From: a bacterium
Lineage (GTDB): Bacteria > CLD3 > SB21
NCBI GenBank assembly: GCA_013360215.1
Contig: JABWCP010000008.1
Coordinates: 1 to 64,000 of the forward strand
DNA: 64,000 nucleotides
Reading direction: 5' to 3'
The notes under the pieces are model-generated. The model searched no databases. It had not been told where the DNA came from and was given only the letters and a program-made list of their open reading frames with translations. How positions within the stretch are numbered: position 1 is the first letter of the stretch; each line of letters opens with the position of its first letter. Shown here piece after piece: positions 4,954 through 34,991 of the stretch. Both the position numbers and the translations under genes were made by a program.

Positions 4954-7326
4954 ATGATCAGGAATTATTTGAAAATCGCGATACGGAATATGCAAAAAAA
5001 TGCTTTGCATACTTTTTTTAACGTATTGGGACTGGCGATGGGTATCGCATGCTGTATCACGGTATATATATTCGTGGATACGATGCTCAATATGGATACC
5101 GCGCATCGCGAGGCCGAACGTATATTCACGATCAATCACGTTCGCCTGATCAATAACCGCGAAGAATTCTGGGGTTTGTCCAAAGGACCGCTTGGCCCGG
5201 CTATTAAAAACGACTTTCCGGAAGTCACTGATTTTATCCGTCTGGATGACAATAATGCCGTGGTCAAGCGCGGCGATCTTATCTTTAACGAAGATATTCG
5301 TTTTGCCGACGCCAATTTCTTTTCCATGTTCACCTTTTCATTGGCTTCCGGTGTCGGCAGCGATCTGACTCAGAAAAACGCCATTTTTTTGAGCGAAGAA
5401 AAAGCGCTGAAATATTTTGGCGATCAAAATCCTGTCGGTCAAACGTTGACTTTGATTTTTGAAGGCGAAAAACGTTTGGAGTTTGTCGTCAAAGGTGTGG
5501 CCAAAAAATTTCCCCGCAACACCAGTTTCGCATTCAACTTTCTCGTCAATTACGAAAACATCAAAGATATTTACCCCCAAGCGGATCGCTGGACTTACAA
5601 CGTCAGCGCTACATTTATCAAGCTGCATCGTCCGGAAGATGCGTTCAAAGTAGAACAGGGGCTTTCCCGATATTTGGCGCTTCAAAATGAAAGCAATCCC
5701 AATCAGCCCGCGCAGCGTTTTTATCTCGACAATCTGCTCACGATGTCTAAAAATTCGTGGCAGGTACGCGGTGATATTTCCGGCGGTACCAATCCGCACG
5801 GCATTTACACACTGACTTTCATCGCCGCACTGGTCATGCTGATGGCCTGCTTTAACTATATCAATATAGCCGTGGCCTCGGCGGCACGTCGTTTTAAAGA
5901 AATCGGAATTCGCAAAGTCGTCGGCGGAACCCGCGGGCAACTCGTCAAACAATTTCTGACAGAAAATTTTATTACCACGCTGACGGCTTTAGGTTTAGGT
6001 ATCGTGTTTGCAGAAACTCTTACCATACCATTTTTTAATTCCATCATACAAGGCAACACGGTATTAGCGTTTGATATTTCCGCTGATCTGCGCGTTGTTA
6101 TTTTTTTAGCCGTACTGACCTCTTCGATCGGACTTTTAGCAGGGCTGTATCCGTCGTTGTACATGAGTTCGTTCAAACCTGTTAACATTCTCAAAGATGT
6201 TCAAAAAATAGACGGCAACCGTTGGTTGGGTAAAACGCTTCTCGTATTACAATTTTCCATTTCACTTTTTGCGGTCATCGCCGGCATTATTTTTACACAA
6301 AACGCCGAATACATCAAAACTTTGGATTACGGCTACGAAGATGATCAGATCGTCGCTTTGTATTTCAAACAATCCGCGCAGTTTCATCAATTTGAACAAA
6401 AAATACGGCAGGACTCGAGAATTCACGCCATCGCCGGTTCCGCGCATCACGCCGGACGCAATATCATGGGAAATGTCGTTTATGAATCCAACGGTGCGCC
6501 GTCCCAAGCTAACGTCATGCGCGTGGGTTCCGACTACATACAGACTTTGGCTTTGCGCATGAAACAAGGACGCGCTTTTGATCGTGCGATGACGACCGAC
6601 GCTGAAAATAGCGCCATCGTCAATGCGACCTTAGTCAAGGCACAAGGATGGACGGAACCTATAGGACAGCGCCTCAAAATGAACGACAAAGAATTGACTG
6701 TCGTCGGTGTCGTGGAAGATTTTTTTTACCGTTCGTACCACCGCGCCATAGACCCTTGTATCCTGACGATGATACCGGACGACGAATACCGTTTCATGTC
6801 CATCAAAGTAGCGCCGGAACACGTTTTGTCTATTCGTCCGTTATTGGAATCAACATGGCACGAGATTTTGCCGGACGAACCGTTTGACATGATTTATCAA
6901 AATGAAATTTTTCTGGAAGATCTGACGGAGGATGAGCAAGTAAAAAACGTGTTTCTGTATGTCGCCATCATGACCTTAATGATCGCCGCGATGGGGTTAT
7001 TTGCTTTGGTATCGCTATCCATCGCCAAACGGACGAAAGAAATCGGTATTCGCAAAGTACTGGGCGCATCCGTAGCGCACGTGATACACCTTGTCAATCG
7101 GGATTTCTATTGGCTGATCGGTATTGCTTCGGTCATTATTTTTCCGATCGCATTTTTTCTGCTTACCAATCTGCTTAATAGTATTTATGCCGTGCATGTT
7201 GATATCACGGCATTACCCTTCATACTCAGCGTATTGATATTCGGTCTGGTGGCAGCCATCACAATCGGCATGCGGGTATATGGCGTCGCGAAGGAAAACC
7301 CCGTACATGCTTTGAAGTATGAATAA
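4954..7326 (+). CDS. ABC permease 1 of the array (fused MacB/FtsX, subfamily A)
   Basis: A 790-residue fused permease. The shared architecture is TM1 (about 20-42), a periplasmic MacB-type core domain, an FtsX domain with three TMs (about 285-405), a further TM (about 430-450), a second periplasmic domain, and a second FtsX domain (about 680-790). This makes about eight TMs, equal to two MacB-like halves in one chain. The cytoplasmic coupling motif appears in both halves, FKEIGIRKVVGG and TKEIGIRKVLGAS, and the second periplasmic domain ends in VVGVVEDFFYRS. The chain ends NPVHALKYE. In subfamily it pairs with permease 3. The exported substrate cannot be told from sequence. Confidence 0.9.
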   Translation: MIRNYLKIAIRNMQKNALHTFFNVLGLAMGIACCITVYIFVDTMLNMDTAHREAERIFTINHVRLINNREEFWGLSKGPLGPAIKNDFPEVTDFIRLDDNNAVVKRGDLIFNEDIRFADANFFSMFTFSLASGVGSDLTQKNAIFLSEEKALKYFGDQNPVGQTLTLIFEGEKRLEFVVKGVAKKFPRNTSFAFNFLVNYENIKDIYPQADRWTYNVSATFIKLHRPEDAFKVEQGLSRYLALQNESNPNQPAQRFYLDNLLTMSKNSWQVRGDISGGTNPHGIYTLTFIAALVMLMACFNYINIAVASAARRFKEIGIRKVVGGTRGQLVKQFLTENFITTLTALGLGIVFAETLTIPFFNSIIQGNTVLAFDISADLRVVIFLAVLTSSIGLLAGLYPSLYMSSFKPVNILKDVQKIDGNRWLGKTLLVLQFSISLFAVIAGIIFTQNAEYIKTLDYGYEDDQIVALYFKQSAQFHQFEQKIRQDSRIHAIAGSAHHAGRNIMGNVVYESNGAPSQANVMRVGSDYIQTLALRMKQGRAFDRAMTTDAENSAIVNATLVKAQGWTEPIGQRLKMNDKELTVVGVVEDFFYRSYHRAIDPCILTMIPDDEYRFMSIKVAPEHVLSIRPLLESTWHEILPDEPFDMIYQNEIFLEDLTEDEQVKNVFLYVAIMTLMIAAMGLFALVSLSIAKRTKEIGIRKVLGASVAHVIHLVNRDFYWLIGIASVIIFPIAFFLLTNLLNSIYAVHVDITALPFILSVLIFGLVAAITIGMRVYGVAKENPVHALKYE

Positions 7327-7405
7327 CCGACGGGAAACTACATCGCAACAAGTCATTCTGTTTGACGATGTTTGATTTTAAAAATTTTTATTTCGGAGTA
7401 CACCT

Positions 7406-9808
7406 ATGATCAAAAATTATTTACAAACCGCATGGCGCGTTTTGCTGCGCAATCGAGGATATGCGTCTATTAATATTTTCGGTCTGACTCTCGGTATGAC
7501 CTGCGCGTTTATGATTTTTTTGATCGTACGCTTTCACCTCAGTTTCAACGACCAGCATCATTTCAAAGATCGCATTTACCGCGTCACGACGACGGATAAA
7601 CGCGCCGCTCAGGAAGACGCGACGAGCATGGGCACGCCGTATCCAATTTCAGGTATACTGCGCACGGGATTCCCCGAAATCGAAACGGTAGCCGTAACCG
7701 ACTATGTGTACAATGGTCAGGTTCTGATCCCGCAACAGAGCGGCGAACCTAAAAAATTCAGCGAAACCAGCGGTATCGCATTTGTTCAGCCTCAGTTTTT
7801 CGACATGTTTGATTTTCCCTGGATCGAGGGCACGCCCAAAACTCTGGACGAACTGAATACCGTTGCTTTGAGTCAAACGTTGAGTAAAAAATATTTCCCC
7901 GAAGGTAATCCCATCGGAAAAATCATTCGTCTGGATAATGAGCACGATCTTAAAGTTACGGGCATTTTCAAAGATTTTCCGGCTAACTCCGACTTCCCCT
8001 TTCAGATGGCGATCGCGTTTGAAACCTCGCGGGCCATGTATCCCAACAATAAAACAGAATGGGGTTCCACCTCGAGCAATACGAACACATACGTACTATT
8101 TAAAGAGAATTTCGACCTTCGCGCGGCCGAGACCAAACTGAACGAAGAAGCCAAAAAACACCGGGAGATACGACCGGGTTTTGATCGGATTTTTTTATTT
8201 CAGCCGCTTGACGCCATTCATTACGACAGCCATTTCGGTTCATATGCCGGCGCCACCATAAGTCAAAATACGCTACTCACACTCGGTTTGATCGGATTTT
8301 TTCTGATTGTAACCGCTTGCATTAATTTCGTTAACCTTGCAACGGCCCAAGCTGTCAAACGCGCCAAAGAAGTCGGCGTGCGTAAAGTATTAGGCGCCAA
8401 TCGTTTTCAATTGGTCGCTCAATTTTATGGTGAAACGATTTTGATCACGCTGTTTGCAGTCATTCTTACATTCGGACTTACCGAATTTAGTTTCCCTAAA
8501 GTTATGGAATGGTTGGATCTGACTATTCCTTCCGCCTTGATCTGGAACGCCAACAGTCTTTTGTTTATAGCCGCTCTCTCGGTGGTGGTTATCTTTTTAG
8601 CCGGCCTTTACCCGGCGCTCGTCTTATCCGGATTCGGTCCTGCACTTGCGCTCAAAAGTAAGATCACTTCGCATCATTCCGGTGGCCTGTATCTGCGCAA
8701 AGGTCTCGTCGTTTTGCAGTTTTCGATTTCACAACTGCTGATCATCGGTACGATCATTGCGACAACGCAGTTGGATTTTTTCAACAAACAAGACCTTGGT
8801 TTCAATAAAGAAGCTGTGGTCATCGTACCGATACATGAACGGACCAAAACATTATTTGAAAGTTTGGAGCACCAATGGAAGAGCCATCCCGGCGTCGAAT
8901 CGGTGAGTTTTTCTTACGCCAGTGCCGCTTCAGGCAACCGCTGGACTTCCAATATCACTTTCTTAAAAAAGGATGAACCGATCGAATTAGACGTTGACCT
9001 CAAAATGGCTGATGATCATTATGCGGATATTTTCGGGTTACAATTTATAGCCGGGCGGAACTATGTAGCCGGTGATACATTGCGCGAAGTATTGATCAAT
9101 GAGACGATGGTTCGCAAACTCGGATTTTCTAATCCTCAGGATGCTATCGGCATTGAACTCAAGATCGGTGCACGTCGCCGCGTCAGCGTTGTCGGCGTTG
9201 TGCGGGACTTTAATGCCTCCTCACTCCATGATCCGATCGCTCCGTGCATAATTGCTACGAACAGTCGGTTTTATCAGGAGGCGTCCATAAAGATCAACAT
9301 GCAACAGGCAACGGAAGCCTTGAGACACATCGAAACAGTATGGAATTCTGCATTTCCTCAATACGTATTTGACCGACGTTTCCAGGACGAGACCATTGCC
9401 GAATTTTATGAGCAAGAACAAATCTATACCAATATGCTTCGCATTTTTTCGGGCATTGCTATTTTCATTGGTTGCCTCGGCCTGTTCGGTCTCGTTTCAT
9501 TTATGGCCACTCAAAAAACCAAAGAAATCGGCGTACGTAAAGTTCTTGGCGCCTCGGTCACGGATATACTACTCATATTTGGAAAAGAGTTTATCGCGCT
9601 GATCATTTTGGCCTTCATCATCGCCGCTCCGCTGGCTTACTACGCGATGCAACAATGGTTGCAAGATTTTGAGTACCGCATCACCCTCGGCCCGGCTGTT
9701 TTTGCCGCAGCGGTAATGGCTTCACTGATCATTGCCGGAGCCACCGTTGGGTATCAGGTATTTCGTGCCGCACGTGCCAATCCGGCCGATGCTTTGAAAT
9801 ACGAATAA
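7406..9808 (+). CDS. ABC permease 2 (subfamily B)
   Basis: 800 residues. It begins MIKNYLQTAWRVLLRNRG and has FNDQHHFKDRIYRV after TM1. Its coupling motifs are AKEVGVRKVLGAN and TKEIGVRKVLGAS, and the periplasmic motif is VVGVVRDFNASSLHD. It is closest to permease 5 (shared ACINF(V/I)NLATAQAV segment, LYLRKGLVVLQFSISQ versus LLLRRGLVMIQFVISQ, and the C-terminal MQ(Q/E)WLQDFEYR). The 79-bp spacer from permease 1 is the second longest permease-to-permease spacer, and CGGAG precedes the start. Confidence 0.9.
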   Translation: MIKNYLQTAWRVLLRNRGYASINIFGLTLGMTCAFMIFLIVRFHLSFNDQHHFKDRIYRVTTTDKRAAQEDATSMGTPYPISGILRTGFPEIETVAVTDYVYNGQVLIPQQSGEPKKFSETSGIAFVQPQFFDMFDFPWIEGTPKTLDELNTVALSQTLSKKYFPEGNPIGKIIRLDNEHDLKVTGIFKDFPANSDFPFQMAIAFETSRAMYPNNKTEWGSTSSNTNTYVLFKENFDLRAAETKLNEEAKKHREIRPGFDRIFLFQPLDAIHYDSHFGSYAGATISQNTLLTLGLIGFFLIVTACINFVNLATAQAVKRAKEVGVRKVLGANRFQLVAQFYGETILITLFAVILTFGLTEFSFPKVMEWLDLTIPSALIWNANSLLFIAALSVVVIFLAGLYPALVLSGFGPALALKSKITSHHSGGLYLRKGLVVLQFSISQLLIIGTIIATTQLDFFNKQDLGFNKEAVVIVPIHERTKTLFESLEHQWKSHPGVESVSFSYASAASGNRWTSNITFLKKDEPIELDVDLKMADDHYADIFGLQFIAGRNYVAGDTLREVLINETMVRKLGFSNPQDAIGIELKIGARRRVSVVGVVRDFNASSLHDPIAPCIIATNSRFYQEASIKINMQQATEALRHIETVWNSAFPQYVFDRRFQDETIAEFYEQEQIYTNMLRIFSGIAIFIGCLGLFGLVSFMATQKTKEIGVRKVLGASVTDILLIFGKEFIALIILAFIIAAPLAYYAMQQWLQDFEYRITLGPAVFAAAVMASLIIAGATVGYQVFRAARANPADALKYE

Positions 9809-9841
9809 ATTGTCAACGCCTTACTTTTTTGGGAGAAATTA

Positions 9842-12211: not shown

Positions 12212-12228
12212 TCAAGGATAATAATATT

Positions 12229-14622
12229 ATGGTAAAGAATTTTTTGATCGTGGCCATGCGCACCATGCGCAAACACAAATCGTACACTATCATGAATGTG
12301 GCCGGTCTCGCAACCGGGTTGGCGTGCTTCATGGTCATTGCCATGTATGTTCGCCGCGAAACGGAGTTTGATACCTTTCAAAAAAATCCCGATCGCCTTT
12401 TTCGTATAGCACTGCATCGGGAAAATACCGGCTCTCCACAGCCTATCGCAACCGTATCGCACAGTGTCGCCGACATCCTTCGCCGGGAATCCCCGGGTAT
12501 TGAATCCATGGCACGTTTATTTCGATTTGATCAAGACGCCGTCATTTTGACGGGCGATAAAAAATTTACCGAGCCGGATTTGATGTTCGCCGAACCGGAT
12601 GTTTTCGACCTTTTGAGTATCGAACTGCTGAATGGCAGTCCTGCTAATGCTTTAAAAAATCCTACGGACGCCGTTTTATCGGAAGCCAGTGCTCGTGCCT
12701 ACTTCGGGCATACCGACGTGATCGGACAGAATATCCGCGTTCGCATCAATACACGCTACGCCGATTTCAAGATTACGGGCGTATTCAAAAACTATCCCTC
12801 CAACTCGCATTTTTATACCAACGTATTATTGGGATTTGACGGAGTAAAAAATTACGTCGGTGATTTGGATTTTTTTCAGAGCTGGTTTAATTACCCCATG
12901 TGGACATACCTGCGCATTAAGGATATCAACGATGAAGCATCGGTTAATGCCGCACTCCATCAGATCGTCGAGCGCCACTTTCCTCAAACGCGCAAGCCGT
13001 CGCACATGCAGCTCCAGCGCGTCACGGATATCCACCTTCATTCACAAATGGGCGGAGAAATTAGACCGAATAGCAATATTTTTTACATCTACACGTTTAC
13101 GATTATCGGGCTGCTTCTTTTGATCGTAGCTTGTGTAAACTACATCAACCTTTCGACCGCTCAATCGGAACAACGTACGCGCGAAGTCGGCGTACGCAAA
13201 GTTATGGGCGCCCGCCGCAGGGAATTAATATTTCAATTTTTGATGGAATCCGTTCTGCAAAGTATATTTGCATTGGGTCTTGCCTTGGGATTGGCCGAAG
13301 TGCTGGCATCCGTCCTCAACCGATTCACGGATCTTCAACTCACATTCGATTATTCGGATCCGTTTTTATTTATATTTTCGGCGTTTCTGATCGTGGTCGT
13401 CGGCGTCGGTGCAGGTTTTTATCCGGCTGTGGTTCTGTCCGGTTATGCGCCAATCCGAAATTTAAGAATGAAGGCTTTTCGTCGCCGGTTTCCCCTCCGA
13501 AAAATACTGGTTATTGTTCAGCTTTCGGTGACCGCTGCACTCATCAGCGCGGTTTGGATCATTCAGCTTCAGATCAACTACGTTCGCTCCAAAGAACTTG
13601 GATTTAATAAAGATCACACCGTTTTGATACGTGCGATCGGGAGCACGGTAGCCTCTAACCTGAACTACGATCGTTTTAAATACCAATGCGAACAATTGCC
13701 CGGTGTGATTTCAGTCACACGTCATTCATGGGTGGCAGGCGAGGGGTTTCGAATCCGGTCCGTCGGTTTTGATTCTTTTTCAGAAGAGCAGCGCCAACCG
13801 ATACAATTTATCTTTGTAGGCGAGGATTATCTCAAAACGTACGATCTGAAGCTTATTGAAGGGCGTGACTTTTCCGCACAGTACCCGGCTGACACAGCCG
13901 GTGCATATATCGTAAACGAAGCCGCCGTCAGAGCGTACGGGCTGACCAATCCTATCGGACGCATAGTCGTCAGCGGCGATCGCGGCCCGGTTCGCGGACC
14001 CATCGTAGGGGTGGTCAAAGATTTTCATTTTGCGAGTTTGCACGAAGCCATCGAACCGATGGTCATCGGATTATTCCGATTCCCGATGCCTTACATCTCC
14101 GTACGATTTGACGGCCAAGCAACGCCGGAAACCATCGGCGCCATCGAACGTTTATGGAATAACATTGATACGGAACGCCCGATGGACTATAGCTTTTTAG
14201 ATACACGTATCGAGCGCGTCTATCGTTTTGAAAATCAACTTTCGGCCATAACCAAATTATTCACGATCTTATCCATGATCATCGGCTGCATGGGTTTATT
14301 TGGCCTTATCGCAGCAATGGCTGAAAAACGCACCAAAGAAATCGGCATTCGCAAAGTATTGGGCGCATCAATCTGGGGCATAATCGGAATGTTTGCCCGC
14401 GAATTCTCGGTCATGGTCATTGTCGCCACGCTTTTAGCTGTTCCGACCGTGTATTCCGGTCTATCCCAATGGCTCGAAGGATTTGCATATCGTGTGGAGC
14501 TGACGGCTGAACCCTTTATCGTATCCTTTATCGCGATCTTGTTTTTAACGGTTATTACAGTCACTCATCATGCATTGAAAGCCGCGAAAACTAATCCGGC
14601 GGTATCGCTCAAATCGGAATAG
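12229..14622 (+). CDS. ABC permease 4
   Basis: The open frame extends back to a GTG at 12208 overlapping permease 3, but the paralogues all start M-x-(K/N)-(N/S)-Y/F just before the first TM. The ATG at 12229 (MVKNFLIVAMRTM) fits this and has AAGGA about 10 nt upstream, so I use it (797 residues). Coupling motifs are TREVGVRKVMGAR and TKEIGIRKVLGAS; the periplasmic motif is VGVVKDFHFASLHE. It is the one member whose C-terminus departs from the family ending: NPAVSLKSE in place of NPVxALKYE. Confidence 0.88.
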   Translation: MVKNFLIVAMRTMRKHKSYTIMNVAGLATGLACFMVIAMYVRRETEFDTFQKNPDRLFRIALHRENTGSPQPIATVSHSVADILRRESPGIESMARLFRFDQDAVILTGDKKFTEPDLMFAEPDVFDLLSIELLNGSPANALKNPTDAVLSEASARAYFGHTDVIGQNIRVRINTRYADFKITGVFKNYPSNSHFYTNVLLGFDGVKNYVGDLDFFQSWFNYPMWTYLRIKDINDEASVNAALHQIVERHFPQTRKPSHMQLQRVTDIHLHSQMGGEIRPNSNIFYIYTFTIIGLLLLIVACVNYINLSTAQSEQRTREVGVRKVMGARRRELIFQFLMESVLQSIFALGLALGLAEVLASVLNRFTDLQLTFDYSDPFLFIFSAFLIVVVGVGAGFYPAVVLSGYAPIRNLRMKAFRRRFPLRKILVIVQLSVTAALISAVWIIQLQINYVRSKELGFNKDHTVLIRAIGSTVASNLNYDRFKYQCEQLPGVISVTRHSWVAGEGFRIRSVGFDSFSEEQRQPIQFIFVGEDYLKTYDLKLIEGRDFSAQYPADTAGAYIVNEAAVRAYGLTNPIGRIVVSGDRGPVRGPIVGVVKDFHFASLHEAIEPMVIGLFRFPMPYISVRFDGQATPETIGAIERLWNNIDTERPMDYSFLDTRIERVYRFENQLSAITKLFTILSMIIGCMGLFGLIAAMAEKRTKEIGIRKVLGASIWGIIGMFAREFSVMVIVATLLAVPTVYSGLSQWLEGFAYRVELTAEPFIVSFIAILFLTVITVTHHALKAAKTNPAVSLKSE

Positions 14623-14665
14623 ATGTTTTCTATTTATCACAACCTTTCAAGAAACGTGAGGTTTT

Positions 14666-17083
14666 ATGTTTATAAATTATTTACAAACGGCAATCCGAGT
14701 ATTACAGCGTAACCGCAGTTATACTCTCATCAATGTGGTCGGTTTATCCATTGGCATATCCAGTGCATTGATCATTTTTAGCATTCTGCATATTCACACC
14801 GGTTTCGACCGTTTCCACAGTAAAAAAGATCGCATCTATCGTGTCGTGACGGATTCCGATGACAACGGAAAAGTAAATCACACGCAGGGTTCGCCTATAC
14901 TTTTGGCTACAGCGATGCAATCCGACCTTTCACAGGTAGAGTTTGCGACACGTACTTATTATGCCGACAACGATAACGGGTTGATTTCTATTTATGATAC
15001 TCAAGGCGGGGCCTCGGCTAAATTCAAAGAAGATGAAGGAGTTGCTTTTGTTGAGCCGGAATTATTCAAAATTTTTGATTTTCCGCTTATCCATGGTTCG
15101 TCCGAAAAATTGAGCGAACCATTCACGGCGATCCTCACCGAATCTATCGCTCGCAAATATTTCGGCTCATCTGACGTACTTGGGCGTACGTTTCGCTTTG
15201 ATAACAAATTTGATTTTAAAATAGTCGGTGTCGCAGCCGATTTTCCGGTCAACACAGAATTGCCCTTTCGCGTAATGATGTCGCTAGAGTCGGGTCGTAA
15301 TAATCCGGATGCGGTGCTCGGATTAAATCTCTCTTCATGGGGCAACCTCTCCAGCAATACCAATACCTGGGTATTACTCAAAGAAGGTGCTACCGCAAAA
15401 GAATTGGAAGATCAACTACCGGCGCTTTCCAAAAAGCATCAGCCGGTTTCCGACATCACCCGCAACTACCGCGTACAACCGTTAGCCGATGTACATTACG
15501 CCACAGATTACGATTCGTATTCCGGTCAGACGACCGACCGATCCACATTATACGCGCTTTTTTTTATAGCCCTTTTTTTAATTGCTACGGCATGCATCAA
15601 TTTCATCAACCTTGCTACGGCACAAGCTGTACGTCGTGCGAAAGAGATCGGTGTGCGCAAAGTGCTCGGCGCCAACCGTACTCAACTCGTTATCCAATTC
15701 CTCGGCGAAACGTTTTTGATTACGATGCTTTCTGTTCTTATCGGCGTTATGATATGCGAACTCACGTTACCGTTTGTACTCAACGCCTTAACGCTTCAAG
15801 CCTTCAAAACACCGATTGATACATTCACGATATTCTTTGTATTATCGGCAATTACTTTTTCGGTCACACTTTTCTCCGGTTTCTATCCGGCAATGATTTT
15901 GTCCGGTTATCGCCCTGCCTTCGTTTTGAAGTCCTCTCAATCATCCGAACATGCCGGCGGTTTGCTGCTGCGGCGCGGGTTAGTGATGATTCAGTTTGTA
16001 ATATCCCAATCGCTCATCATAGCGACGCTTGTAGCGGTAGGCCAGTTAGATTTTTTACGCACCAGAAATATCGGGTTTTCCAAAGATGCCGTCGTCACGG
16101 TGCCGTTACCCAACGCTGAACCGCAACAACTGGAAAGTTTACGATCTCGGTTTTTAGAATTTTCAGGCATCGAGGCGGTTACGTTCGGATATGCAGCCGG
16201 TGCCGTTAATTTTAGCTGGAATACCATCATGCGTCATATGCACGATGGCAAAGAAGAACGCATTCGAACGATGATGCGGGTTGCCGACGCGTATCACATC
16301 CCTACGATGGGATTACAAATGATCGCCGGGCGAAATTACACCAAGAGCGACACACTGAATGAAATCGTGGTCAACGAAACGTTTGTCAAAACCATCGGCT
16401 GGACATCGCCACAAGACGCAGTCGGTAAAATCATGATGCGCGGCAACAACAAAACTGTGCCGATCGTCGGTGTCGTCAAAGACTGGAATACAAACTCCTT
16501 ACATTCTCGGATTCGTCCCGTCGTACTGGGAAATTATGCCCCTATGTATCGTGAGGCCGGCATCAAAATACGAATGACACAGTCAACTGAAGCAATGGCA
16601 CATATTCAAAAAGTATGGAATGAAACGTTTCCCGAATACGTTTTTTCATTCGAATTTCTGGATGAACGCATCGAACGTTTTTATCAAAATGAACGCCTCA
16701 CATCAAATCTGTTTACCACTTTCGCCGGTATTGCTATTCTCATCGGATGTCTCGGTTTATTTGGTTTGGTAGCTTTTATGGTCAATCGCAAAACCAAAGA
16801 AATAGGTGTCCGTAAAGTACTTGGCGCCTCTATTGTCGATATATTAAAGATTTTCGCCGGTGAGTTTTCCCGATTAATAGTTGTTGCATTTATTATCGCA
16901 GCGCCACTGACTTACTGCATCATGCAAGAATGGCTTCAGGATTTTGAGTATCGCGTTGCCATCGGAACCGATGTGTTTGTATTAGCACTTTGTGTTTCAC
17001 TTTTGATCGCTGCCGTATCGGTGGGTTATCAGGTGTTGCGCGCTGCACGCGCCAACCCCGTGCATGCGTTGAAATATGAGTAA
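14666..17083 (+). CDS. ABC permease 5 (subfamily B)
   Basis: 805 residues and the closest relative of permease 2. It starts MFINYLQTAIRVLQRNRSY, with FDRFHSKKDRIYRV after TM1. Coupling motifs are AKEIGVRKVLGAN and TKEIGVRKVLGAS, and the periplasmic motif is VGVVKDWNTNSLHS, with W in place of the usual F. It is separated from permease 2 by two members of other subfamilies, so the pair is not a simple adjacent duplication. Confidence 0.9.
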   Translation: MFINYLQTAIRVLQRNRSYTLINVVGLSIGISSALIIFSILHIHTGFDRFHSKKDRIYRVVTDSDDNGKVNHTQGSPILLATAMQSDLSQVEFATRTYYADNDNGLISIYDTQGGASAKFKEDEGVAFVEPELFKIFDFPLIHGSSEKLSEPFTAILTESIARKYFGSSDVLGRTFRFDNKFDFKIVGVAADFPVNTELPFRVMMSLESGRNNPDAVLGLNLSSWGNLSSNTNTWVLLKEGATAKELEDQLPALSKKHQPVSDITRNYRVQPLADVHYATDYDSYSGQTTDRSTLYALFFIALFLIATACINFINLATAQAVRRAKEIGVRKVLGANRTQLVIQFLGETFLITMLSVLIGVMICELTLPFVLNALTLQAFKTPIDTFTIFFVLSAITFSVTLFSGFYPAMILSGYRPAFVLKSSQSSEHAGGLLLRRGLVMIQFVISQSLIIATLVAVGQLDFLRTRNIGFSKDAVVTVPLPNAEPQQLESLRSRFLEFSGIEAVTFGYAAGAVNFSWNTIMRHMHDGKEERIRTMMRVADAYHIPTMGLQMIAGRNYTKSDTLNEIVVNETFVKTIGWTSPQDAVGKIMMRGNNKTVPIVGVVKDWNTNSLHSRIRPVVLGNYAPMYREAGIKIRMTQSTEAMAHIQKVWNETFPEYVFSFEFLDERIERFYQNERLTSNLFTTFAGIAILIGCLGLFGLVAFMVNRKTKEIGVRKVLGASIVDILKIFAGEFSRLIVVAFIIAAPLTYCIMQEWLQDFEYRVAIGTDVFVLALCVSLLIAAVSVGYQVLRAARANPVHALKYE

Positions 17084-17118
17084 CTAAGTTTTTTAGATAT
17101 AAAACAATGGGATGCTTC

Positions 17119-19497
17119 ATGTTCAAAGTTTACCTGAAAATTATTTTACGAAACTTTCTGAAAGAACGTTCTTTCGTCTGGATCAACCTGATCGGATTAT
17201 CGGTCGGACTACTCTGTTGTTTTACGATCTTACTCTACGCGCGTAAGGAATTGGCTTACGAAAATTTTCACGTTAACAAGGAACACATTTACCGTGTATT
17301 GCCGCGGATCCAAGGCGGCGCCAACGATTATGAACAAATTTGGACACCGGCATGGCTTGCCCCGTCCGCTAAAAATAAAATTCCCGAGATTCGCCTCGCT
17401 TCGCGATACATCCATTTGGGATCGGAACAACTGATCACGCATGAAAACCAACGTATGCTTACGGACGGATTAGCTTTGGCCGATCCGGATTTTTTACACA
17501 TGTTCTCTTTTACGGAACCGTTCACGTCCGGCATGAATCCGCTCAGCGATCCTTCGGCACTGATTGTCTCCCGTTCCGCTGCGTATCGTATGTTTGGAGA
17601 TCAATCTCCGATCGGGAAAACCATAACACTCAATGGTTCCCACGTCTTTACGATCAAAGCCGTATTTACGGATGTACCGGTCGAATCCCATCTACAATTT
17701 GAAATGCTGGGTCATTTTCAGCGCATTCGCGAAATCTGGGGAATGGATACGACACCGGAAGAAAATACCAGTTGGAATTTTGCAACCTACCTGATGACAA
17801 CGCCCCAAGCCGATATCAGCGCGGTACAGTCTAAAGTGCTCAATATTTTCGAAGAACGTGCTCCGCGGAAAAATCAGCGCACGATCCGACTACAGTCTCT
17901 CAACGATATTCATTTCACGCAAGGTATCCGCCGTGATAACGCCGACGGAAATTGGACTTCACTGATCGCGCTTTGCAGCGTCGCCGTATTGGTCGTACTC
18001 ATCGCATGTTTCAATTTTACCAATCTGATGACAGCCAAAGCGATGCGACGCGCCAAAGAAATCGCCGTGCGAAAAATTTCCGGCGCAAGCCGGTGGCTCA
18101 TAGCTCTGCAGTTTATCAGCGAAGCACTTATGCTGTCGGTTTTTGCTACCGTCTTGGCTATCGGGATGCTGGAAGGCTTACTTCCTCTTTTACGTCATTA
18201 TCTCGACATATCTATTCCTTTTACCTATACCGAACACGGTCCCTGGTTAGGCATTATGATCGGCGTCGGAGTATTGACCGGGCTCATCGCCGGTTTTTAC
18301 CCCGCATGGGTTTTATCATCCTTTGAACCCGCGCGCACCATCAAAGGCGTGACCAAACTTCCGGTGGCCAATAAACTCCGCAAAGGATTGGTTTTATCCC
18401 AATTCACCGTTTCGATCATTCTTGCATCGTGCACGGTGATTGTTTGGCAACAAATCAACCACATGAAAGAATTTAACCTCGGCTTTCAAAAAGAACAGAT
18501 TATCGTGACCTCCGCCCCGGGTTCATTGCGTGAAAAACCTGAAGCCGTACGTCAACAGCTCACCAACGACGGATCAATCATATCCGTAACATTTGCCAAC
18601 TCCGTACCCGGCAATGCTTTTTCGCATGGTCCGTATGAAATACTGGGCGGAACGGAAAACGGACGCATTTCTATCAATACCATATATGCGGATGCGGAAT
18701 ATTTGAAGACACTTAACATAGCGTTATCCGAAGGGCGTTACTTTTATCCGGAACATGCGGCAGAGAACACGGATTATTATGTGGTCAACGAAGCTTTTAT
18801 GAAAGCTTACGGAAAATCGGATTTTCAAACGATGCGCTTGCGTTCATTGGACGGAAATCATGATAAACCGGGATCAATCGTCGGCGTTGTCAAAGACTTT
18901 CATTATGCGTCACTTAAAAGCACCATCGCACCATTGGTCCTGCGCTACGCGCCGGCAGAATCCTGGCGCATGATTATTCGTGTCGCACCGCAACAAACAA
19001 AACAGGCTATCACAAAACTTTCGTCCGTGTGGCAAACTATGGCGCCGGAAATTCCGATGACGTACCGCTTTCTTGACGAAGTGTTTGACAAACAATACAA
19101 ACAGGAAGATCGCCTGCATCACCTGATGATTGGCTTTTCGGCACTGGCCATTCTTATTGCAGGGCTTGGCCTCTATAGCATGGTGGCGTATTACAATGAG
19201 CAGCGTACCAAAGAAATCGGAATTCGCAAAGTTTTGGGCGCCACGATCACGGATGTATTGTATCTGATGTCGCGCGATTATGTCGGAATGGTCGTACTGG
19301 CAAACATCATTTCATTCCCTCTGATTTATTTTATGATGAATCGCTGGCTGGACGATTTTGCGTATCGCGTTGCCGTTCGATGGGAAATCATGGCTATTAC
19401 AGGAATATTGACATTGGGACTGACACTCATCATGGTGGGAATACAATCATGGCGCACGGCTTCCGCCAATCCGATCCATGCACTCAAATACGAATAA
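17119..19497 (+). CDS. ABC permease 6
   Basis: Two starts are possible: ATG at 17107 (no Shine-Dalgarno) and ATG at 17119 (MFKVYLKIILRNF, with GGGATG just upstream). The second matches the paralogues and is used (792 residues). Post-TM1 motif YENFHVNKEHIYRV. The first coupling motif is the divergent AKEIAVRKISGAS, the second is normal (TKEIGIRKVLGAT). VGVVKDFHYASLKS marks the second periplasmic domain and the end is NPIHALKYE. It is followed directly by the SUMF1-like lipoprotein gene. Confidence 0.9.
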   Translation: MFKVYLKIILRNFLKERSFVWINLIGLSVGLLCCFTILLYARKELAYENFHVNKEHIYRVLPRIQGGANDYEQIWTPAWLAPSAKNKIPEIRLASRYIHLGSEQLITHENQRMLTDGLALADPDFLHMFSFTEPFTSGMNPLSDPSALIVSRSAAYRMFGDQSPIGKTITLNGSHVFTIKAVFTDVPVESHLQFEMLGHFQRIREIWGMDTTPEENTSWNFATYLMTTPQADISAVQSKVLNIFEERAPRKNQRTIRLQSLNDIHFTQGIRRDNADGNWTSLIALCSVAVLVVLIACFNFTNLMTAKAMRRAKEIAVRKISGASRWLIALQFISEALMLSVFATVLAIGMLEGLLPLLRHYLDISIPFTYTEHGPWLGIMIGVGVLTGLIAGFYPAWVLSSFEPARTIKGVTKLPVANKLRKGLVLSQFTVSIILASCTVIVWQQINHMKEFNLGFQKEQIIVTSAPGSLREKPEAVRQQLTNDGSIISVTFANSVPGNAFSHGPYEILGGTENGRISINTIYADAEYLKTLNIALSEGRYFYPEHAAENTDYYVVNEAFMKAYGKSDFQTMRLRSLDGNHDKPGSIVGVVKDFHYASLKSTIAPLVLRYAPAESWRMIIRVAPQQTKQAITKLSSVWQTMAPEIPMTYRFLDEVFDKQYKQEDRLHHLMIGFSALAILIAGLGLYSMVAYYNEQRTKEIGIRKVLGATITDVLYLMSRDYVGMVVLANIISFPLIYFMMNRWLDDFAYRVAVRWEIMAITGILTLGLTLIMVGIQSWRTASANPIHALKYE

Positions 19498-19501
19498 AAG
19501 T

Positions 19502-20371
19502 ATGTTAATCACAAAAGACTCAATCATCATAGCTGATTTGAGAACACTTATTATTCTAATGATATCTTTGTATTTAACAGCTTGCTCTGCCATGCATCGT
19601 AAAAATCCTTCCGGATATATTGCCGAAACTTCTTTTTCTGTATGGTGGCAGGATTCGACTACCGGTATGAAATTTCGCCGTATCGAAGCGGGAAAATATA
19701 TGGCCGGTTTAGCTGAAAACGATACGGTCGCCCCCTTGCACGAGATACATATTACAAAACCGTTTTGGATGAGCGCGTATGAAGTAACACAACGCCAATG
19801 GTATATGATCATGCATGAGAATCCCAGTCAGTATTCTCATGATTGTTCAGATTGCCCTGTTGAAAACGTCAGCTGGTTTGATGTGAAAAGATTCATTGAA
19901 CATCTGAACAGCAAAACCGGTCGTCGTTACCGATTGCCCAGTGAGGCCGAATGGGAATATGCATGCCGTGCAGGTACGTCAACACCCTTCGCCACGGGAC
20001 ATACATTGAGTACGGATCAGGCCAATTACGATGGTAACTGGCCTTACGGCAAGTCCTCAAAAGGTATTTTCCGATCTCGCCCTTTGCCGGTAGGAAGTTT
20101 TGCTCCCAACACATGGGGCCTCTATGACATGCATGGTAACGTTTTAGAGTGGTGCGAAGATGACTATTGCCGATATAATCAGGAAACGGAGTATGATCCT
20201 GTACGGCGATGTGCCGGCGATCGAAAAATCATTCGCGGCGGAAGTTGGCACTTCGGAGGTGATCTGGCGCGTAGCGGCCGTCGCTATACTCATGAACCGC
20301 ATGATCGTGGACCAAGCTTAGGCTTTCGTCTTGTAATGGAAGATGTAAATACAAAAGAAAATAACCGTTAA
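19502..20371 (+). CDS. SUMF1/FGE-fold lipoprotein lacking the catalytic cysteines
   Basis: I use the ATG at 19502 because it gives a clean lipoprotein signal (LIILMISLYLTAC, lipobox LTAC); the longer frame from 19478 would overlap permease 6. The mature part (289 residues in all) is an FGE-sulfatase domain: EVTQRQWYMIMHENPSQY, CPVENVSWFDVKRFI, RLPSEAEWEYACRAGT, GLYDMHGNVLEWCED and IRGGSWHF, ending GFRLV. In true formylglycine-generating enzymes two cysteines follow RGGS; here that stretch (GGDLARSGRRYTHEP) has none, so sulfatase activation is unlikely. A surface-anchored binding or structural role is more plausible. It splits the permease array after the sixth copy. Confidence 0.85.
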   Translation: MLITKDSIIIADLRTLIILMISLYLTACSAMHRKNPSGYIAETSFSVWWQDSTTGMKFRRIEAGKYMAGLAENDTVAPLHEIHITKPFWMSAYEVTQRQWYMIMHENPSQYSHDCSDCPVENVSWFDVKRFIEHLNSKTGRRYRLPSEAEWEYACRAGTSTPFATGHTLSTDQANYDGNWPYGKSSKGIFRSRPLPVGSFAPNTWGLYDMHGNVLEWCEDDYCRYNQETEYDPVRRCAGDRKIIRGGSWHFGGDLARSGRRYTHEPHDRGPSLGFRLVMEDVNTKENNR

Positions 20372-20394
20372 TGCTTAAATAAACAGGGACCACC

Positions 20395-22749: not shown

Positions 22750-22779
22750 TCTCCAATTTTTTAACACTAAAGGTGATGT

Positions 22780-25164: not shown

Positions 25165-25191
25165 TCACCGCTCATAACCGAAAGTGTTTTT

Positions 25192-27594: not shown

Positions 27595-27652
27595 AAAGTT
27601 TTGAATAAATACGTTAACCGCTGCGTCCGAAAAAAAAATCGAAAGGCCGCCA

Positions 27653-30022: not shown

Positions 30023-30140
30023 TACGTGTACGATCAAAACGCATCATTTTTATGGCAACCTTATGATGAGGTCAAACGTATAAAAATTGATTTACGCGCT
30101 TGTTAAATAACACAATTTTCAACCTTAAGAGACGAGCCCC

Positions 30141-32552
30141 ATGCTTAATAATTATCTTAAAATTGCTTTTCGCAATCTTATTAAACACAAACTTTACTCC
30201 ACGATCAATATCGTGGGTCTGTCAGTAGGCATCGGCGCTTGTTTGGCCATATTACTCTTTGTAAAGGACGAATTGCGTTATGATCGCCATCACCCGCAGG
30301 CCGATCGGATATACCGTATTACGCGTTCTTGGAATAATCCCAACGGGGAAACCAGCCTTCACCTGGGAAAAATTGCACCGCCGGCGGCTCCGCTGATGAG
30401 AACGGACTTTCCGGAAATAGTCGTAACTCAAATTTTACAGGATTTTCAAACCCGACTGAAGTGCGATAATAAAGTTTTCGTTGAAAGCGGCTTATTCTTC
30501 GCGGATGAATACGCGTTTCCTATTTTCAGTTTCAAGGTTGTCAAAGGAGATATCCAGAACGCACTGAAAAATCCCAATGAGCTATGGATAACCGAAAGTA
30601 TGGCACGCAAGTACTTCGGAGATGCCGACCCTATCGGTAAAATCATCCGTTACGAGGACGACGCCGACCTGAAAGTCGCAGGTATACTTGCCGATCCGCC
30701 CCAGCAAACGCATTTTCACTTTGATTTCCTTGTTTCGTTCAGCACCTATAAAGCTTTTACCCCTCCGGAAAGATTGACCTATTGGGGCTCGAATAACTAT
30801 ATCACGTATGCCTTGTTGCCTGAAGACTTAACGGCTTCGGCGCTGGAAGATAAGCTGGTCGCTTTTGTAGATCGGCATATCCCGCTGAGCAACTCACATT
30901 TTCCAAAACCGAGCATGGGAACTCGCCTGCACGTGCAGAAGATGACCGATATCCATTTATATTCACATCTCGATTCGGAAATCGAACCCAACGGCGATAT
31001 TTTGTATGTCTGGACTTTTTCGATTGTTGCAGTCTTCGTACTGTTGATCGCGTGTATTAATTTTATGAATCTTTCCACGGCGAAAGCATCGGATCGTGCC
31101 ACGGAGGTCGGCGTGCGCAAAGCGATCGGCGCACATCGCGGCGATTTGATCCGTCAGTTTTTGAGCGAATCACTGGTGATCGCCGTCATCGCAATGATAT
31201 TGTCGATCGGTCTTGTGGAACTTTCGCTCCCGTTTTTTTCATCTTTTGTCGGAAAATCCCTCGACCTTTCGTTAGTAGAAGATTATGGAATGCTGTTGTC
31301 GGTGCTGGGTATTTTGCTGGTCACCGGTGTTGTGGCCGGCAGCTACCCGGCTTTTTATTTGTCTTCCTTCGAGGCGGCCAAAGTACTCAAAGACAAACGG
31401 CAGTTTGGTTCCGCCCGATCACGTTTTCGCTCCGTCCTCGTCGTGACCCAGTTTGCAATTTCCATCGCTCTGGTTATCGGTATCGGCATCATCCGTAATC
31501 AGATCGATTACTGCCGCAATGCCGATATGGGATTTGATAAGGATCGCGTCGTGTCGCTTTTTATCGAACAGGAAACCCGCGACAAAATTCCACAAGTCAA
31601 GGCACAACTTCTGCAACTGCCCGGCGTTGAATCCGTTGGGTCATCGAGTCGTATTCCCTCCGGTCGCCTTTTAGATAGTTATAAAATGACCGTGGAGTCG
31701 GAATCTAAAATGAAGGAAATTGATTTTCGCATAGCCGCAGTGCGCGTGGATGAAGACTTCTTTCCGACCTACGGTATGACGATGGCAAGCGGTCGTAATT
31801 TCTCCAGAACGTACGCGACCGACGACACGGCGGCGGTCATGTTCAACGAGGCGGCCGTCAAAGCCATAGGCTGGAAATCCAATGATGAAGCGCTGGGCAA
31901 AATGGTGATCTCGGCCAATCGTACTATGAAAGTAATCGGTATCGTCAAGGACTTCCATTTTGAGTCCATGCACGAAAAAATTTCGCCGATTGTTTTTATT
32001 CCCAATACAGGCAACTATACTCGCCTGTCCATTCGATTGCGCGGAACAGCAATACCGGAAACGATGGATCACATCCGTACACTTTGGGCGGAATACCATC
32101 CGTCACTGCCGTTTGAATATCAATTCATTGATGAAAGTTTTGATCGGTTGTATCGCGCCGAAGAGCGCTTGGGAACCATATTACGCGCCTTTGCCATATT
32201 TGCCACTTTTATCGCCTGCCTTGGACTGATCGGTCTGGCCGCTTATATGGCTGAACGACGTACGAAAGAAATCGGCGTCCGCAAAGTAATGGGGGCGTCG
32301 TCCTGGAGTATAGTCCGGCTCTTGGCTTCTGATTTTGTACGATTGGTGGCGGTGGCCAATCTGCTGGCCTGGCCGCTAGCCTACTATGTCATGAATCAAT
32401 GGCTTGCGACGTTTGAATATCGCACTCCACTTTCGATAGTACCGTTTGCCGTAGCAGGGCTGACGGCCGTCATTATCGCAATCGCCACTGTGAGTTTTCA
32501 AGCCTATCGCGCCGCCAGCGCCAACCCGATACGGTCCCTGAAATACGAATAA
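30141..32552 (+). CDS. ABC permease 11
   Basis: 803 residues. Starts MLNNYLKIAFRNLIKHKLY; YDRHHPQADRIYRI after TM1. Coupling motifs ATEVGVRKAIGAH and TKEIGVRKVMGAS; periplasmic motif IGIVKDFHFESMHE; end NPIRSLKYE. It is preceded by the longest permease-to-permease spacer of the array (118 bp, AT-rich), the most likely place for an internal promoter, although I could not identify one with confidence. Confidence 0.9.
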   Translation: MLNNYLKIAFRNLIKHKLYSTINIVGLSVGIGACLAILLFVKDELRYDRHHPQADRIYRITRSWNNPNGETSLHLGKIAPPAAPLMRTDFPEIVVTQILQDFQTRLKCDNKVFVESGLFFADEYAFPIFSFKVVKGDIQNALKNPNELWITESMARKYFGDADPIGKIIRYEDDADLKVAGILADPPQQTHFHFDFLVSFSTYKAFTPPERLTYWGSNNYITYALLPEDLTASALEDKLVAFVDRHIPLSNSHFPKPSMGTRLHVQKMTDIHLYSHLDSEIEPNGDILYVWTFSIVAVFVLLIACINFMNLSTAKASDRATEVGVRKAIGAHRGDLIRQFLSESLVIAVIAMILSIGLVELSLPFFSSFVGKSLDLSLVEDYGMLLSVLGILLVTGVVAGSYPAFYLSSFEAAKVLKDKRQFGSARSRFRSVLVVTQFAISIALVIGIGIIRNQIDYCRNADMGFDKDRVVSLFIEQETRDKIPQVKAQLLQLPGVESVGSSSRIPSGRLLDSYKMTVESESKMKEIDFRIAAVRVDEDFFPTYGMTMASGRNFSRTYATDDTAAVMFNEAAVKAIGWKSNDEALGKMVISANRTMKVIGIVKDFHFESMHEKISPIVFIPNTGNYTRLSIRLRGTAIPETMDHIRTLWAEYHPSLPFEYQFIDESFDRLYRAEERLGTILRAFAIFATFIACLGLIGLAAYMAERRTKEIGVRKVMGASSWSIVRLLASDFVRLVAVANLLAWPLAYYVMNQWLATFEYRTPLSIVPFAVAGLTAVIIAIATVSFQAYRAASANPIRSLKYE

Positions 32553-32582
32553 CATGATTTATATATTCAGGAGTACATGCGC

Positions 32583-34991
32583 ATGTTGACCAATTATATC
32601 AAAATCGCTTTACGCAATATGCTCAAAGCCAAAGGCTATTCGGCCATCAATATTTTGGGATTGGCCGTCGGTCTGGCGTGTTGCTTATTGATCGTACTTT
32701 TTATCAGCGACGAACTGAGCTACGACACCCATTATGCCAACGGTGATCGTTTGTACCGCGTTTATCTGAACGCTCGCATCAACAACAAAGACTTTGTCAC
32801 GGTAACTACTAATAGCCCTTTGGCGGCCGCTATGATGAAGGAGATCCCTGAAGTCGAAACGGCCGGTCGTCTCTACAGTCCGGGAAATTTTACGATTCGT
32901 TACGGGGAAAAAATCTTTAATGAAGAGCGTATGTATTTTGCCGATCCGACGATGCTGGATATTTTTAGTGTGACCGTTCGCGACGGCGATGTCAAAAATT
33001 TTGACCAACCCAATATGATTATTCTGTCGGAAAGTATGGCCAAAAAATATTTTTCAGACGAAAATCCGATCGGCAAAGTCCTGCGGCTTGACGGCAAAAC
33101 CGATTACAAGGTCATCGCCGTGTATAATGATGTACCCGGCAACGCGCATTTGCATTTTGATTTTTTGGCCAGCCTCACCAACCGTGAGGAGGGGAAAAGT
33201 ACGCAATGGCTAAGCAATAATTTTTCAACGTACACACGATTAAAACCCGGCGCATCCACAACCAGCGTCGAATCCAAGATGCATGAAATGGTCATGCGTT
33301 ATGGCGGGCCTGAGCTAAAACGATACGCTAATAAGACCTTTGAACAGTTTTTTTCGCAAGGCGGCGCCTACGCTTATCATTTGCAGCCGATCCGCGACAT
33401 CCATTTGTATTCCAATCTTGAAAATGAACAAGAACCCGGCGGGGATATTACGTACGTTTATATTTTTTCAGGCATTGCTATTTTTATTTTGCTCGTTGCG
33501 TGTGTCAATTTTATGAATCTTGCCACCGCACGTTCCGCAGGTCGCGCCAAAGAAGTCGGCATTCGCAAAGTACTCGGCTCCGAACGCGGTCAGCTCATAC
33601 GTCTCTTTCTGATCGAATCGCTGGTCATCACGACCTTGGCGATGATCATCGCCGTACTTTTGGCTGAAATGGCACTGCCATTTTTCAACGAACTCTCAGG
33701 CAAATCGCTTGATATCGGAATCGCAACCAATCCCCTGCTTGGTATCGGACTTGCCTTGGCGGTACTTTTAGTCGGTGTGCTGGCCGGCACCTATCCGGCG
33801 TTTTACCTCACGGCTTACCAACCGATCGCCGTACTCAAAGGAGCGATCGCTTCCGGCGTAAAAAATAGCAGACTGCGTGACGTCCTTGTTGTTTTTCAAT
33901 TCTGCGTATCCATCATCCTGATCGCGGGCACGATCATCGTTTACCAACAGCTACAGTATGTACAAAACCGAAATCTGGGTTTCCAAAAAGAACAGATCCT
34001 CGTTATTCATAATGTATGGCAAATGAATAAACAAGGTGATGCCTTCAAACAATCCGTCCTGCGCACACCCGGCGTCGCAAGCGCATCGCTCACCAGTACT
34101 TTACCCGGGCATCCTACCGGCAACAGCGCATTTCAGATCGAAGGCGATGCGTCCAATGAACCGTATCTCCTTTGGCAAGTGCGAACCGATTTCGACTTTC
34201 TTAAAACTATGGGGATTAACATGTCCCAAGGCCGCGATTTTTCGATGGAACATCCTTCGGATTCCTCTGCGATCATTATCAATGAGGCGGCTGTCCGTCT
34301 GATGAATATGCCGCAACCCCTCGGCAAACGTCTGACGCGTTTTAGTTCTCCGCCATACGAAATCGTCGGCGTCACGCAGGATTTCAATTTTCAATCTTTA
34401 CGCAATCCGGTTCGCCCGATTTCGATTTTTATGAATCCTCCGGGTTTTCCGGCACCTTCATTTTTAGCGGTTCGCGTAAAACCGGATCATTTACAGGAAA
34501 CCATACAATCCATCGGTCAGGTGTGGAATCAATTCCAGCCCGGTGAACCGTACGTGTACACCTTCCTCGATGAAGATTTCGGAAACCTGTATCGCACGGA
34601 AGAGCGCGCCGGCACGATCGTAACGACGTTTTCAAGTTTGGCTATATTTATTGCCTGCCTTGGGCTTTTGGGTCTTGCCGCTTTTGCCACCGAACGGCGC
34701 ACTAAAGAAATCGGTATTCGCAAAGTACTCGGCGCATCCGAAGGTCACATCATCGGCATGATCTGCAAAGAATTCGTCTTATTGGTTACCGTCGCTTTGG
34801 TCATCTCCGTGCCGATCGCATACTACGTGATGAATCGCTGGCTGCAGGATTTTGCCTACCGTATTGACATCGGCGCTGATGTATTTATTCTGTCGGGCGT
34901 GATTGCATTGACCGTGGCGCTGCTGACGGTAAGCTATACGGCGATCCGCGCCGCCTTGTCTAACCCCGTAAACGCATTGAAGTATGAATAA
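32583..34991 (+). CDS. ABC permease 12
   Basis: Two in-frame ATGs lie at 32577 and 32583. CAGGAG ends only 3 nt before the first but 9 nt before the second, and the second gives the family-like start MLTNYIKIALRNM, so 32583 is preferred (802 residues). YDTHYANGDRLYRV follows TM1; coupling motifs AKEVGIRKVLGSE and TKEIGIRKVLGAS. The periplasmic motif VGVTQDFNFQSLRN is the most divergent of the set. End NPVNALKYE. Its stop codon overlaps the start of the next gene. Confidence 0.9.
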   Translation: MLTNYIKIALRNMLKAKGYSAINILGLAVGLACCLLIVLFISDELSYDTHYANGDRLYRVYLNARINNKDFVTVTTNSPLAAAMMKEIPEVETAGRLYSPGNFTIRYGEKIFNEERMYFADPTMLDIFSVTVRDGDVKNFDQPNMIILSESMAKKYFSDENPIGKVLRLDGKTDYKVIAVYNDVPGNAHLHFDFLASLTNREEGKSTQWLSNNFSTYTRLKPGASTTSVESKMHEMVMRYGGPELKRYANKTFEQFFSQGGAYAYHLQPIRDIHLYSNLENEQEPGGDITYVYIFSGIAIFILLVACVNFMNLATARSAGRAKEVGIRKVLGSERGQLIRLFLIESLVITTLAMIIAVLLAEMALPFFNELSGKSLDIGIATNPLLGIGLALAVLLVGVLAGTYPAFYLTAYQPIAVLKGAIASGVKNSRLRDVLVVFQFCVSIILIAGTIIVYQQLQYVQNRNLGFQKEQILVIHNVWQMNKQGDAFKQSVLRTPGVASASLTSTLPGHPTGNSAFQIEGDASNEPYLLWQVRTDFDFLKTMGINMSQGRDFSMEHPSDSSAIIINEAAVRLMNMPQPLGKRLTRFSSPPYEIVGVTQDFNFQSLRNPVRPISIFMNPPGFPAPSFLAVRVKPDHLQETIQSIGQVWNQFQPGEPYVYTFLDEDFGNLYRTEERAGTIVTTFSSLAIFIACLGLLGLAAFATERRTKEIGIRKVLGASEGHIIGMICKEFVLLVTVALVISVPIAYYVMNRWLQDFAYRIDIGADVFILSGVIALTVALLTVSYTAIRAALSNPVNALKYE

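Follow-up and report, generated by a model that had tools for sequence, protein, structure and literature searches.

Type VII (MacB-superfamily) ABC transporters are marked by a unit of four transmembrane (TM) helices whose TM1 and TM2 flank a large periplasmic domain and by a partner ATPase of the MacB/LolD/FtsE class, and they act by mechanotransmission as ATP drives the nucleotide-binding domains to dimerize; several described systems vary this plan. In YbbAP-TesA of Escherichia coli (PDB 9ge6-9ge8), the permease is a fused duplication with two periplasmic domains and two coupling helices; YbbP has 10 TM helices, including two linker helices, and its coupling helices bind two copies of YbbA (PMC12646458). 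In MacAB-TolC, MacB is an ATPase fused to a half-size, homodimerising permease and is accompanied by an HlyD-type adaptor. The darobactin exporter DarBCD has one permease and one ATPase. ADOP proteins (TIGR03434) are fused, duplicated MacB/FtsX permeases of about 800 amino acids that form big paralogous sets and are defined as lacking a partner ATPase. Annotations of their relatives speak of 'orphan' permeases whose function is unknown (PMC11573002). Group II ECF importers, which have an unrelated fold, use one energising module, often with an ATPase heterodimer, in common for many exchangeable membrane subunits (PMC7755397).

Here, we describe a bacterial locus of twelve fused MacB/FtsX permeases in a window of 64,000 nucleotides (the whole stretch of contig JABWCP010000008.1 that was analyzed). 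In Pfam profiles and in a structural model of permease P12, the Type VII feature occurs twice, and on these features the system is assigned to the Type VII ABC transporters; by defining features it is not an ADOP, DarBCD, YbbAP, or MacAB system. Like ADOPs, the permeases are about 800 residues long and duplicated, but the four that were scanned reached 270 to 351 bits against a cut-off of 622.3, as a related group rather than members, and an ATPase stands at either end of the array. With an ATPase pair accompanying the set, 'orphan' is not an apt label for them. The DarBCD profiles (NF038007, NF038008, and NF038010) describe the same three kinds of parts and are among the best curated matches for the adaptor and ATPases, but all scores fall under the equivalog cut-offs (adaptor, 203.5 of 450 bits; permeases, 103 to 175 of 700; ATPases, 263 to 282 of 375). 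Unlike YbbP, the window permease has eight TM helices (in the model), and it comes with two ATPase types and an adaptor; we found no evidence of a TesA partner. The MacB-class transmembrane and periplasmic domains and the HlyD-type adaptor resemble MacAB-TolC, whereas the ATPases are separate, the permeases are fused, and there are many of them per adaptor. The likeness to group II ECF systems is one of organization only, seen in gene counts (one A1-type ATPase and at most one A2 type per genome for 1 to at least 41 permeases); those systems are importers with a separate EcfT, whereas the membrane parts of the window are MacB_PCD/FtsX, with no EcfT or S-component folds. Motor sharing is known in vitamin importers and, as far as we could find, is apparently new for MacB-class exporters. 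We found no paper describing arrays or shared motors of such exporters in the openly available literature, which is not proof of novelty, as subscription papers were mostly outside the search.

Layout of the array and its surroundings

A first-pass annotation had described the locus as twelve consecutive, nearly gapless, full-length fused permeases on one strand, with one adaptor and two ATPases at the ends. All twelve open reading frames are present and intact (784 to 805 amino acids, no stops) between positions 4954 and 34991, and profile matches confirmed the adaptor and both ATPases. The gene order, all on the plus strand, is adaptor, ATPase 1, permeases, and ATPase 2, with three further genes inside this bracket (Table 1). 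The description as a consecutive run held only in part: a lipoprotein gene interrupts it within the largest gap (897 bp), and the other gaps between permeases do not exceed 118 bp. The permeases tested matched MacB_PCD and FtsX, most of them in both halves. A KEIGxRKxxGA-type coupling motif is present in each half of all 12, as claimed, with variants such as KEVGIRQTLGG in P10 and KEIAVRKISGA in P06; the C termini, described earlier as NPVxALKYE, follow the looser form NP(V/I/A)xxLK(Y/H/S)E. Pairwise identity among the twelve is 26 to 46%, the nearest pairs being P02/P05 (46%), P07/P12 (44%), and P01/P03 (37%). An assembly artifact was rejected as the source of the array, since the copies are far too divergent and the composition is even.

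Table 1. Features of the permease locus (positions in the 64,000-nucleotide window)
Feature	Position	Strand	Evidence or remarks
Weak sigma-54-like -24/-12 site upstream of adaptor (TGGCACAAGAATTGAC)	2270..2285	+	2 mismatches, not significant alone
Periplasmic adaptor (HlyD/RND_mfp-type membrane-fusion protein, DarC-like)	2346..3599	+	HlyD_3, TIGR01730, NF038010
23S_rRNA_IVP four-helix-bundle gene, adaptor/ATPase 1 interval	3678..4070	+	PF05635, 114.6 bits; at this spot in more than 15 related loci
ATPase 1, A1 type (FQSFNL, SGGQQQR, GNLDS)	4098..4787	+	ABC_tran; DarD-like, 282.5 bits; A1 group
Permease P01, 790 aa	4954..7326	+	MacB_PCD and FtsX, two stretches each; 45-46% orthologue in G002/G004
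Permease P02, 800 aa	7406..9808	+	TIGR03434, 315 bits (under cut-off of 622.3); 51% to G002/G004 copies
Permease P03, 789 aa	9842..12211	+	68% orthologue in G003 array
Permease P04, 804 aa	12208..14622	+	MacB_PCD and FtsX, two stretches each; 60% orthologue in G004
Permease P05, 805 aa	14666..17083	+	Nearest 48% in G004, ambiguous orthology
Permease P06, 796 aa	17107..19497	+	FtsX twice, MacB_PCD; without clear orthologue, best about 34%
FGE-sulfatase-domain lipoprotein inside array	19478..20371	+	PF03781, 153 bits
Permease P07, 784 aa	20395..22749	+	Orthologue 56% (G002), 53% (G003)
Permease P08, 794 aa	22780..25164	+	54% orthologue in G006/G004
Permease P09, 800 aa	25192..27594	+	57-60% orthologue in G002/G004/G006
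Permease P10, 789 aa	27653..30022	+	44% orthologue in G002
Permease P11, 803 aa	30141..32552	+	59% orthologue in G002/G004
Permease P12, 804 aa	32577..34991	+	AlphaFold2 pLDDT 90.7; best solved match YbbP 9ge6; about 52% orthologue in G003/G004
GNAT acetyltransferase between P12 and ATPase 2	34984..35478	+	PF00583
ATPase 2, A2 type (FQSYHL, SGGQQQL, GNLNS)	35800..36462	+	ABC_tran; DarD-like, 263 bits; A2 clade

The 23S_rRNA_IVP gene is probably an insertion rather than a component of the machine, and the GNAT gene is probably unrelated to the transporter. In about 20 loci from different phyla, a gene of the 23S_rRNA_IVP type, in either orientation, separates the adaptor from ATPase 1 or closely follows ATPase 1 (e.g., L041:11301-11660, L054:3123-3491, L081:11335-11691, L119:11288-11656, and L100:11378-11746 and 12633-12998). 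All 24 matches in the gathered loci are at this position, and the interval looks like a recurrent insertion hotspot for these genes. Related arrays contain genes for signal-peptide proteins between their permeases (an esterase, an HGI-repeat protein, a peptidase-like lipoprotein, and uncharacterized ones; G002_C36:6014-6886 and 14252-15289, G002_C4:88435-89193 and 96589-97698, and G002_C84:4775-5506), some of them common to genomes G002 and G004. The idea that secreted proteins are array cargo did not reach significance: 22 of 30 embedded genes (at least 200 amino acids) look secreted by a crude predictor, compared to 186 of 328 in the flanks (P = 0.08). Downstream of the array, the window also contains two separate nearby serine hydrolases of the beta-lactamase family (PF00144; 40805-41974 and 43900-45021) and a bacterial microcompartment (BMC) shell protein with two BMC domains adjoining an RnfC/Nuo51-like (PduS-like) protein (60140-62028), beside which lies a tryptophan 2,3-dioxygenase gene (59018-60115).

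We did not accept a sigma-54 promoter for the window, as the candidate site has two mismatches and the window holds 36 such sites, with 28 expected. Across related loci, 19 of 83 adaptors are preceded by a -24/-12 site with no more than one mismatch (about 1.4 expected), an enrichment seen for the class as a whole, and an NtrC-type sigma-54 activator occurs in the flanks (up to 10 kb) of 57 of 78 named loci. The regulator of the window, if present, would lie past the end of the contig. FtsX-like permeases also appear, independently of our data, in a survey of sigma-54 regulons (PMC12316311). In several Bacteroidota loci, a TolC-like gene follows ATPase 2, which supports a tripartite exporter.

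Two ATPase types and many permeases

Two ATPases had been recognized at the first pass, which missed that they belong to different, conserved types. Both are of the MacB/LolD/FtsE class. In an alignment of 97 locus ATPases, fixed residues split the sequences into 71 of type A1 and 26 of type A2. We assigned sequences to these groups by the D-loop residue (D173 in A1, N or H173 in A2); the tree and the remaining differences are independent of that choice. These differences lie near the Q-loop (F92/N93 in A1 and Y92/H93 in A2), after the signature (R149 and L/V/K149), and elsewhere (H137 and L; M129 and F). A2 is monophyletic with a support of 1.0, and A1 plus A2 form one clade (0.965, with a few other ATPases as the outgroup). 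From these sequences, ATPase 1 and ATPase 2 are ancient, distinct paralogues. The D-loop contrast did not hold as a universal rule, as A1-like genes in two genomes of the Acidobacteriota group (G066 and G081) also carry GNLNS. These two ATPases (loci L245 and L247) combine the Asn D-loop with SGGHQQR, in genomes with 235 and 145 first-look ADOP candidates, respectively. The D-loop Asp touches the Walker A motif of the partner subunit, and in TAP1 a D-loop mutation allows translocation without hydrolysis of ATP (PMC4242082). The A2 change would thus plausibly render the two ATP sites of any A1-A2 pair nonequivalent.

Among 25 named FCB-type genomes, which were reached through the adaptor, all 25 have one A1 and 19 have one A2, with 1 to at least 41 fused permeases. 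The genome of the window has 15 permeases, G002 has 34 to 40 hits, and G003 has 6; all three genomes carry a single A1 and a single A2. Three fused permeases of the window's genome lie outside the array (on C14, at 83 kb of C8, and, partial, on C24), and C14 and C24 carry no MacB-type ATPase. Permeases, at least 41 of them, are dispersed around the complete Aminicenantes chromosome CP070825 (G044), whose sole A1-A2 pair is a tandem at 673 to 674 kb. The common motor proposed earlier thus gains support: each genome has one A1 and at most one A2, whatever the number of permeases.

Alternatively, many of the permeases could be independent of A1 and A2, either serving as receptors or as mechanical regulators or drawing on other MacB-type ATPases of the cell. 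The dispersed copies mostly lie at a distance from the A1-A2 pair, other MacB-type ATPases are present in each genome, and the ADOP relatives carry the orphan annotation cited above. Against this, the four other MacB-type ATPases in the genome of the window (C1, C2, C9, and C10) adjoin half-size MacB permeases of their own and do not fit the separate ATPase and adaptor per fused permease that the first-pass annotation had named as one finding that would overturn it. Conservation of the coupling motifs in both halves of 238 permeases is also high, about 90 to 100% at the key residues (E, G, R, K, and G), which argues for real ATPase contact. We consider independence from A1 and A2 improbable.

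In the 60 Acidobacteriota-group genomes sampled from the phylum of G044 (largest permease counts of at least 13), A2 occurs in 14 of 15 genomes with at least five fused permeases and in 1 of 45 others (Fisher P = 1.3e-11, kinship ignored). Within the 25 FCB-type genomes, A2 presence does not predict permease number. A1-like genes of at least 67% identity were found in 17 of 19 genomes with an ADOP above the curated cut-off and in none without one; in the remaining two, the A1-like gene is more divergent. In several genomes of this group A2 adjoins ADOP genes, the adaptor-A1-ADOP-A2 bracket is present in three, and in others A2 is isolated. A1 occurs without a recognized A2 in 6 of the 25 FCB-type genomes, three of them with 13 to 20 permeases, and in six ADOP genomes with 1 to 6 permeases; several of the genomes with A1 but no A2 are incomplete metagenome-assembled genomes.

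These A1-only genomes imply that A2 is not always needed, that A1 can probably homodimerize, and that two separate homodimers are possible. The ATPases might then have diverged to recognize different permease subgroups, with A1 homodimers driving one subset (e.g., a permease beside the adaptor) and A2 homodimers the expanded rest. Consistent with two motors, A1 is the only type in genomes holding few ADOPs, A2 comes with expansions, A2 adjoins one or more ADOP permeases in G073, G090, G074, and G083, and both types retain Walker A, Walker B, the catalytic Glu, and the H-loop His. However, in both surveys every genome with A2 also had an A1-like gene (34 of 34: 19 of 19 FCB-type and 15 of 15 Acidobacteriota-group genomes, with G044 in both), A1-A2 tandems occur, A1...A2 brackets surround the same permeases, and an A2 homodimer would have the altered D-loop at both ATP sites. 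We regard two separate motors as rather unlikely.

The search for the same array in related genomes recovered the adaptor-A1-[permeases]-A2 order in sister genera and other phyla (Bacteroidota, Neomarinimicrobiota, Cloacimonadota, and Zixibacteria), with 3 to 15 permeases. Brackets on single contigs hold 12 permeases in the window, 6 in G003, 15 in Algoriphagus vanfongensis, 7 in Cecembia, 7 in Cloacimonadota, 6 in Neomarinimicrobiota, 5 in Xanthocytophaga, and 4 in Marinigracilibium; other loci have an A1-A2 tandem ahead of the permeases. A dozen in one run, called unusual before, is therefore unusual in size only. Within the window's own phylum, where the survey covered eight genomes, the same-family genomes G002, G003, G004, and G006 have an adaptor 75 to 83% identical to that of the window, followed by ATPase 1 and permeases. 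ATPase 2 follows six permeases in G003 and closes the array of G006, which spans two contigs joined via a 77-base overlap. A 127-base overlap links the adaptor-ATPase 1 contig of G002 to a second contig with permeases, and ATPase 2 ends a further contig; the permease hits of G002 do not necessarily form one array. In one Chitinophaga pinensis record, several copies have broken frames, for which sequencing error is one possible cause.

Divergence and predicted structure of the permeases

In a tree of 83 permeases, 10 of the 12 window copies pair with a copy from another genus at 44 to 68% identity, the exceptions being P05 (ambiguous) and P06. The P01 orthologue is also the first permease after A1 in G002 and G004. 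We computed dN/dS between G002 and G004 and between G003 and G006, so the window copies are represented through their orthologues. All 21 permease orthologue pairs tested gave values of 0.026 to 0.103; dS was near or above 1 for the G002/G004 pairs and 0.18 to 0.60 for the G003/G006 pairs. The identities, the cross-genus orthologues, and this purifying selection bear out the view that these are old paralogues kept together, and neutral decay was seen neither in the twelve window copies nor in the tested orthologue pairs. Ordinary lineage-specific amplification, with largely redundant copies and an array reflecting dosage or drift, would fit the fast change in copy number (6 in G003, 34 to 40 hits in G002, and the module absent from G005, of the same genus as G003). 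With copies so divergent, mostly shared across genera, and under such strong selection in the tested pairs, we find it very improbable.

Between paralogues, the periplasmic domains are 27% identical and the TM/coupling blocks 36 to 44%, with the C-terminal TM/coupling part highest (44%). Because the periplasmic domains are the most divergent part, the permeases probably differ in substrate, and on this comparison a panel of distinct substrates is plausible.

An AlphaFold2 model of P12 (64-sequence alignment, pLDDT of 90.7, pTM of 0.86) has long helices at residues 19-47, 291-321, 337-374, 386-412, 431-464, 673-707, 722-756, and 767-793. Read as TM helices, in agreement with hydropathy, they number eight (4 + 4), with periplasmic domains at about 48-290 and 465-672, and the coupling motifs form short helices at 324-332 and 709-717. 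The best solved match is YbbP (9ge6; E = 1.3e-18, TM score of 0.47), followed by MacB and LolCDE. Each permease polypeptide is thus predicted to supply both transmembrane halves, and the mixed complexes considered at the first pass are not needed. With its two coupling motifs and helices, each permease would offer two docking sites for ATPases, as in YbbP, which binds two YbbA copies. The N-half and C-half motifs differ consistently over the 238 permeases, an asymmetry that is expected for unlike ATPases but also for a homodimer, as in YbbAP.

A proposed motor shared among interchangeable permeases

The best explanation, to which we assign a probability of about 0.6, is a shared-motor Type VII (MacB-class) system, in which one A1-A2 pair, probably a heterodimer, drives interchangeable permeases via a common adaptor. 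Each fused permease would be a complete transmembrane pair, its two halves each contributing four TM helices, a periplasmic domain, and a coupling helix. The single adaptor and an outer-membrane TolC would complete an envelope-spanning exporter. A single pair of ancient but dissimilar ATPases would supply ATP hydrolysis, most likely as an A1-A2 heterodimer to which ATPase 2 brings its altered D-loop, and the pair would dock on whichever permease is produced. The permease would probably set the substrate through its divergent periplasmic domains. We infer physical sharing, the heterodimer, export through TolC, and distinct substrates. Taken by themselves, motor sharing appears likely, with good genomic support, and the A1-A2 heterodimer only slightly favored, both judged from sequence data.

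There are roughly even odds on a wider reading, in which all 'orphan' duplicated permeases (the ADOPs of Acidobacteriota and their FCB relatives, a handful to more than 40 per genome) would constitute one plug-in export system with a single asymmetric A1-A2 pair and one adaptor, the export counterpart of group II ECF importers. If this is true, a large unexplained membrane protein family of soil and sediment bacteria would no longer count as 'orphan' and would become a modular transporter whose motor is defined. The MacB class, in which the members studied so far each work with two copies of a single ATPase, would then include motor sharing and an ATPase pair whose altered D-loop is fixed in the lineage, and the loss of two ATPase genes should silence all of the permeases together.
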